A DNA stretch of 47,758 bases from the NCBI GenBank assembly GCA_028702435.1, contig JAQVOX010000003.1, positions 1-47,758 of the forward strand, read 5' to 3'. This stretch comes from Desulfotomaculaceae bacterium (GTDB taxonomy: Bacteria > Bacillota > Desulfotomaculia > Desulfotomaculales > Pelotomaculaceae). Position 1 is the stretch's first letter, and every line of letters starts with the position of its first letter. Both the position numbers and the translations under genes were made by a program. This document shows, piece after piece, positions 8,301 through 9,198 of this stretch. Under the pieces are notes generated by a model, which was given only the letters and a program-made list of their open reading frames with translations, did no database searches and was not told the origin of the DNA.

Positions 8301-8329
8301 TTGACCTATTCGAAATTTTCTGATAACAT
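8301..8329 (+). promoter_or_regulatory. Sigma-A-like promoter of small peptide ORF
   Basis: TTGACC (8301-8306), 17-nt spacer, TAACAT (8324-8329), 39 nt upstream of the 8369 ATG. Confidence 0.55.
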
Positions 8330-8368
8330 TCACAATATACAAAATATATACACATCGGAGGGAACGTT

Positions 8369-8458
8369 ATGGAAATCTCATATGAGAAGCCTATTGAACC
8401 TATTGCTATGGAACAGGAACCAGCTGATATCTACCTTGTACCCATTCTATTTTATTAA
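8369..8458 (+). CDS. Putative 29-aa peptide MEISYEKPIEPIAMEQEPADIYLVPILFY
   Basis: ATG with RBS GGAGGG (8357-8362, 6-nt spacing); TAA stop overlaps start of a strong terminator hairpin; below ORF-track length cutoff. Confidence 0.55.
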   Translation: MEISYEKPIEPIAMEQEPADIYLVPILFY

Positions 8459-8482
8459 GCACCCGCAAATCAGCGGGTGCTT
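8457..8482. terminator. Rho-independent terminator (possibly bidirectional)
   Basis: AAGCACCCGC-AAATCA-GCGGGTGCTT perfect 10-bp stem followed by ATTTCT; lies between convergent units. Confidence 0.8.
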
Positions 8483-8571
8483 ATTTCTCAAGGTGATAAA
8501 TCTGCTCAACTTGCATTTATTTAAATGAAAGTAACAAATATAATTTTTTTTTATATAAACGCACTAATATG

Positions 8572-9198
8572 CTATAGTTTGGGTTCATGTATAAATATGC
8601 TGCCATGGTTAGATCTTTTATAATAGCTTAACCGTTCCGCCCTACTAGTAATATTACCTATATAAGGTTTTTCACCTTCCCTAACGTCAATGATGGCCAT
8701 GGATATGAAAGGATACCGGTTAGGCAAATCAATCTTGTTTCTTTTTATTCTAGGCTCTAATTGCTTGCAGGTGGGTCTAATTAAATTGTCAAAATGCCTG
8801 ATGAAAAGCTTGCATAAACTATCAGCACGCTTTTTTTGTGTAATAATGATAAACACATCACCCATAATATGAGCGATAAAATCTTTCTCCCCGCCATATT
8901 TATCTACTACATTACTTAAAACCTTGGAGGTAAATATAATGATATGGTTTGCACTGGCACAATCGTATTTTTTTTTACATAATCTAACATGAATTATGGA
9001 GAACTTTTGCATTTTTTCAGTACGCATGTTTAACTCTTGCTGTAAGAGAATTTTACCGGGCAATTCGGTGAGAGGATTAATATCCTTGTCTAACTCCAAA
9101 CCAATACGGGGCATGGTATATGGTAATGTCTGTCTTTTCGTTAACAAATTAATACCACATTTGATCAGATCAATAACTTTGAGATAAATGGTATTCAC
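8572..9198 (-). CDS. Degenerate GGDEF-domain protein (probably catalytically inactive)
   Basis: 'NPLTELPGKILLQQEL' resembles the GGDEF N-terminal DPLTGLPG motif; GGDEF signature position reads 'AHIMGDVFIII'. Confidence 0.65.
   Translation of the reverse strand: MNTIYLKVIDLIKCGINLLTKRQTLPYTMPRIGLELDKDINPLTELPGKILLQQELNMRTEKMQKFSIIHVRLCKKKYDCASANHIIIFTSKVLSNVVDKYGGEKDFIAHIMGDVFIIITQKKRADSLCKLFIRHFDNLIRPTCKQLEPRIKRNKIDLPNRYPFISMAIIDVREGEKPYIGNITSRAERLSYYKRSNHGSIFIHEPKL

Follow-up and report, generated by a model that had tools for sequence, protein, structure and literature searches.

A lone microprotein gene of Desulfotomaculales with a nearly invariant C-terminus and a putative CodY operator

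The window, a 47,758-nucleotide stretch from a Desulfotomaculaceae bacterium, contains a small gene for an acidic 29-residue peptide together with its own expression signals (Table 1). The promoter hexamers, the ribosome-binding site six bases before the ATG and the short open reading frame described in the original prediction are all present, and the genes on both sides lie on the minus strand, as it had also stated. The peptide contains no Cys, and reading of its sequence revealed neither a signal peptide nor a membrane-spanning stretch.

Table 1. Coordinates of the microprotein gene and its signals in the window.
Feature	Position	Strand	Basis or remark
Promoter TTGACC-17-TAACAT with extended TG (TGATAACAT)	8301..8329	+	-35 at 8301-8306, 17-nt spacer, -10 at 8324-8329; block kept in 8/9 distinct copies
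CodY-box-like operator, spacer and -10	8305..8328	+	right box 8314-8328 and weaker left half-site
Ribosome-binding site GGAGGG	8357..8362	+	6 nt from ATG at 8369
29-aa microprotein gene, MEISYEKPIEPIAMEQEPADIYLVPILFY	8369..8458	+	TAA stop 8456-8458; pS/pN over nine copies
Conserved C-terminal segment D-x-Y-L-V-P-I-L-[FL]-Y, codons	8426..8455	+	copy alignment, codon selection
Terminator hairpin	8456..8483	+	11-bp stem from the stop codon (8456-8466 pairs with 8473-8483), loop of 6, weak U-tract

Taken alone, the promoter and the terminator would both fail to convince. A promoter consensus scan found 11 sites where 9.1 were expected, which is no better than chance; the promoter in the window is credible because it is conserved across copies. 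The terminator was predicted as a stem starting within the stop codon. The hairpin itself stands and occurs at the equivalent place in eight of nine distinct copies, but its U-tract in the window (ATTTCTC) is weak, and for this reason it is missing from the list produced by the terminator scan. In several relatives the equivalent hairpin is followed by 6-8 T. Purine-rich, GGAGG-like ribosome sites are found at the equivalent place in all copies.

A profile search of 113 genomes of the order Desulfotomaculales found ten copies of the gene in eight genomes. Besides the copy in the window, there are nine in seven other genomes, which belong to Pelotomaculum and its relatives and, in one case, to another family. 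The records name the carriers as Pelotomaculum terephthalicicum, Pelotomaculum MAGs, a Desulfotomaculaceae MAG and a MAG labelled Deltaproteobacteria. The last record (Deltaproteobacteria bacterium DeMMO5_3, locus L019) is placed with the Pelotomaculum genomes at the level of order; its label is probably wrong. The PtaB.Bin104 MAG includes a 3.8-kb contig (L021/L022) that is close to one of PtaB.Bin013 and is probably misbinned, so that PtaB.Bin104 may hold only one true copy. A peptide search of 100 related genomes gave full-length copies 86, 76 and 72% identical in the nearest genomes, and a full-length copy 54-55% identical in the genome of another family. All copies share the same end residue and a good ribosome site, and most run directly into a hairpin terminator.

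The remaining genomes of the carrier family gave no match in the profile search, and the same intergenic spot in non-carriers holds no divergent peptide with a similar terminal motif. Sampling 399 genomes across the phylum yielded no further copies, only two weak chance matches, one of them across a stop codon. Scanning all of GTDB for D[VIL]YLVPIL[FL] returned the same copies and no others confirmed by tblastn; such scans depend on the C-terminal motif, and distant relatives with a different one would escape them. The phages, plasmids and viral contigs searched gave no homologues, and a phage- or plasmid-borne gene is therefore not supported. Nine members have no match in Pfam or PHROGs, two have none in NCBIfam, PDB matches appear only at E >= 1.4, and a literature search for LVPILFY or LVPILLY returned no papers. 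The family is absent from all family libraries used, in keeping with the earlier failure to recognise it.

The open reading frame is a genuine protein-coding gene under purifying selection, which is strongest on the last ten residues. Over nine copies, pS is 0.67 and pN 0.22 for the whole gene; for residues 20-29 the values are 0.63 and 0.06. Variable columns number 12, 12 and 27 of 29 at first, second and third codon positions. With pN far below pS and the changes falling at third positions, selection must be acting on the protein; the frame is kept in the relatives with an excess of synonymous change, rather than RNA structure only being conserved. The invariant part of the copies is the C-terminal half, E-Q-[ED]-x-x-D-[VIL]-Y-L-V-P-I-L-[FL]-Y-COOH, and the N-terminal half is free to vary. 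P. terephthalicicum has this C-terminus in two copies (L020, L023) that lie in different places, and it recurs in another family at an unrelated locus (L019).

Genomic context varies. In the family carriers the gene lies opposite a FlK-like thioesterase gene and addAB, with a GGDEF-like gene and cysteine synthase, a GDT1-like gene or phoR downstream. In G036, the one carrier outside the family, it is flanked by a zinc-ribbon gene and yifB. The second copy of P. terephthalicicum (L020 10001-10087) sits close to an hsp20 gene and lacks both the promoter block and the adjacent hairpin. In the window, positions 8572-9198 on the minus strand encode a 208-aa protein that by eye is a degenerate GGDEF-like protein, without a Pfam match; it is kept only in the genus (L016 9424-10089, L017 9578-10255). 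No partner gene is constant across all contexts, and the peptide therefore most likely acts in trans. Nor is any same-strand downstream gene constant, which agrees with the earlier statement that the peptide is not a leader for a following gene. It is a small lone gene whose promoter and terminator are its own and are conserved.

The promoter block is conserved beyond its hexamers. An upstream alignment of the nine distinct copies plus that of G013 gives the consensus CATRTTGAC..(N)TCnAAATnTTCTGATAAYAT, with small deviations, in all copies but L020. Between the window and G036, which are unrelated loci, 25/29 positions of the block and 14/17 of the spacer are identical, against 21/60 in the upstream flank and 6/25 in the downstream flank. 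A conserved spacer is unexpected in a plain promoter. The longer promoter pattern does not recur elsewhere in the genome of the window at up to 3 mismatches; in the family, other matches to the promoter motif (<=2 mismatches) occur near the control rate and are not followed by a relative of the peptide.

The conserved part of the spacer, AATnTTCTGA.AA, resembles a CodY box and overlaps the -10; this was overlooked in the original prediction, which had noted the hexamers correctly. A second TTC/GTC lies nine bases upstream. The usual CodY operator consists of overlapping 15-nt sites sharing 6 nt, and a 9-bp offset is typical of such sites (PMC10415144). The right box, AATTTTCTGATAACA, matches 12/15 positions of AATTTTCWGAAAATT, a consensus that may not be Desulfotomaculales's own. 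In eight of nine distinct copies the right box scores 11-13/15 and the left box, at the right offset, 7-10/15. The arrangement is like that of CodY-repressed genes of Firmicutes in its AATTTTCTGA core, in the second half-site at a 9-bp offset and in its position over the -10; it is unlike them in the weakness of the left box. In simulated promoters of matching composition, a single box of 12 occurs in 0.9% and a double-site score of 16 in 3.6%; it should be noted that 12/15 boxes are not rare in AT-rich DNA.

All eight carriers encode a CodY over the cut-off. Its DNA-binding domain (HTH) is 95.5-99.6% identical to that of non-carriers in the seven carriers compared, and the CodY of the eighth, G017, is identical to that of G013. 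CodY boxes with <=2 mismatches are enriched in the genome of the window (29 versus 6 in the control) and hardly in its relatives. The CodY motif of these organisms is without an independent positive control: ilvB, the only classical CodY target checked, has no such box upstream in the group, and boxes upstream of codY were dropped as a control because the conserved matches lie within the hslU coding sequence. CodY-box-like sites at L161 1501-1515 and L162 1501-1515 precede the same gene, encoding the SEAPVIPGTEGWERMYPYFY protein, in two genomes of the genus; that gene is a candidate CodY target and a possible control. The match of the conserved spacer to a CodY box suggests a nutrient-repressed gene. 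On this pattern, CodY control of the peptide gene is put forward as putative, at slightly better than even odds, and the protein is probably made when nutrients are low.

The sensor domain of CodY is less conserved than its DNA-binding domain. It is 55-70% identical between family carriers and non-carriers, compared with 76-80% among non-carriers and with 68-73% for other families (loci L098-L105 versus L106-L117 and L086-L097). Neither HslU, encoded next to CodY, nor the DNA-binding domain has changed as fast as this, and G036 has no such acceleration (74%, with other families at 68-73%). In the carrier clade the sensor domain has lost one of four cysteines that are otherwise conserved in the CodY of the order; the four cysteines suggest metal or redox sensing. 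A fully supported branch of the CodY tree separates off the family carriers, and G036 lies apart from them, a topology that would fit either gain of the peptide gene in one clade plus transfer, or several losses; both are possible.

The preferred explanation, with a probability of roughly 0.4, is a microprotein under CodY control that uses its C-terminal tail to dock on a partner. CodY would sit on the spacer and -10 and repress the gene while nutrients are plentiful, and the protein would then appear in nutrient limitation. Inside the cell, the peptide might act in trans by docking: its variable N-terminal half would be a spacer, and the tail (EQ.QxDxYLVPIL[FL]Y), which ends in a free carboxylate, may fit a groove of a partner protein, inhibiting it or altering its activity like other microprotein regulators of Firmicutes. 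Sda and MciZ are microprotein inhibitors of this kind in Firmicutes, which the peptide may resemble in its small lone gene, its solubility and a presumed action by binding one target. It has no sequence relation to them in Pfam or NCBIfam. A trans-acting peptide with a tail that is read by something would account for a solitary gene whose position changes and whose product has a free N-terminus and a fixed C-terminus. The preferred reader is a docking partner in the cell; an exporter plus receptor and a modifying enzyme are both made less likely by the lack of an export signal, of an Rgg-type regulator and of MftC.

The variable N-terminus and conserved C-terminus fit a propeptide equally well. 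The C-terminal 8-10 residues (YLVPILFY) could be released as a hydrophobic pheromone or inter-cell cue at nutrient limitation, which would accord with the CodY-like control. Streptococcal short hydrophobic peptides have a comparable C-terminal active part, and the peptide is like these SHP/RRNPP pheromones in being short, with a hydrophobic C-terminal segment after an acidic residue. Unlike them, it has no hydrophobic N-terminal leader (the last nine or ten residues are its only hydrophobic stretch) and no receptor or regulator gene beside it, and none of the eight carriers encodes an Rgg-type regulator; TIGR01716 has no match in 12 genomes. Nor has the C-terminal segment diversified into pherotypes. 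The secreted or signalling peptide of the original prediction is thus unlikely, and an Rgg-type pheromone in particular is disfavoured, as no such receptor is adjacent or encoded. Less likely again is a precursor of a modified peptide or cofactor, also proposed at the outset, with the C-terminal Tyr or another core residue modified as in mycofactocin. The peptide recalls MftA in its length of about 30 residues, in its acidic leader and in a strongly conserved C-terminus with a final Tyr. The C-terminal motif differs from that of MftA, however, the core has no Cys or Trp, and no context contains a maturase. MftC exceeds the cut-off in five non-carriers and in no carrier; the carrier G010 has only two weak radical-SAM-model matches. 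With no MftB/MftC cluster either, a mycofactocin precursor is excluded. MftC and the peptide gene never co-occur in the order (5 versus 8 genomes; L082-L085 versus carriers).

Feedback on CodY, in which the Ile/Leu/Val-rich tail would bind the altered sensor domain and modulate the repressor of its own gene, is suggested by the CodY-like box and by the fast-changing sensor domain of the carriers. The family carriers form one clade, though, and the change is therefore one event, which G036 does not share; the idea is a long shot kept as speculation, and that the peptide is a genome-encoded CodY ligand, replacing or modulating free amino acids as the signal, is a slightly longer one. Were the product a leader or arrest peptide, stalling of the ribosome at YLVPILFY-stop would mask the hairpin and let transcription run on. 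Arrest peptides have conserved terminal codons with Pro and stop; here the last ten codons are conserved, with Pro and stop, and the hairpin stem starts at the stop codon. This is very improbable, since neither the window nor most copies have a same-strand gene downstream, the downstream gene differs with context (GGDEF-like, PhoR, GDT1, YifB), and L020 has no hairpin there. The small regulatory RNA once suggested as a product, with the reading frame incidental, would suit a short transcript with a terminator. The fold z-score of -2.17 is mostly the contribution of that terminator, an Rfam search of the window matched tRNA only, with nothing in the region of the gene, and the codon pattern described above shows selection on protein, so this explanation is scarcely credible.

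Ten residues are near-invariant over two bacterial families, which implies that something binds or processes exactly that tail. The peptide adds a family missing from the libraries used, with an almost invariant C-terminal decapeptide, and offers a testable regulator in the little-studied regulation of syntrophic anaerobes.
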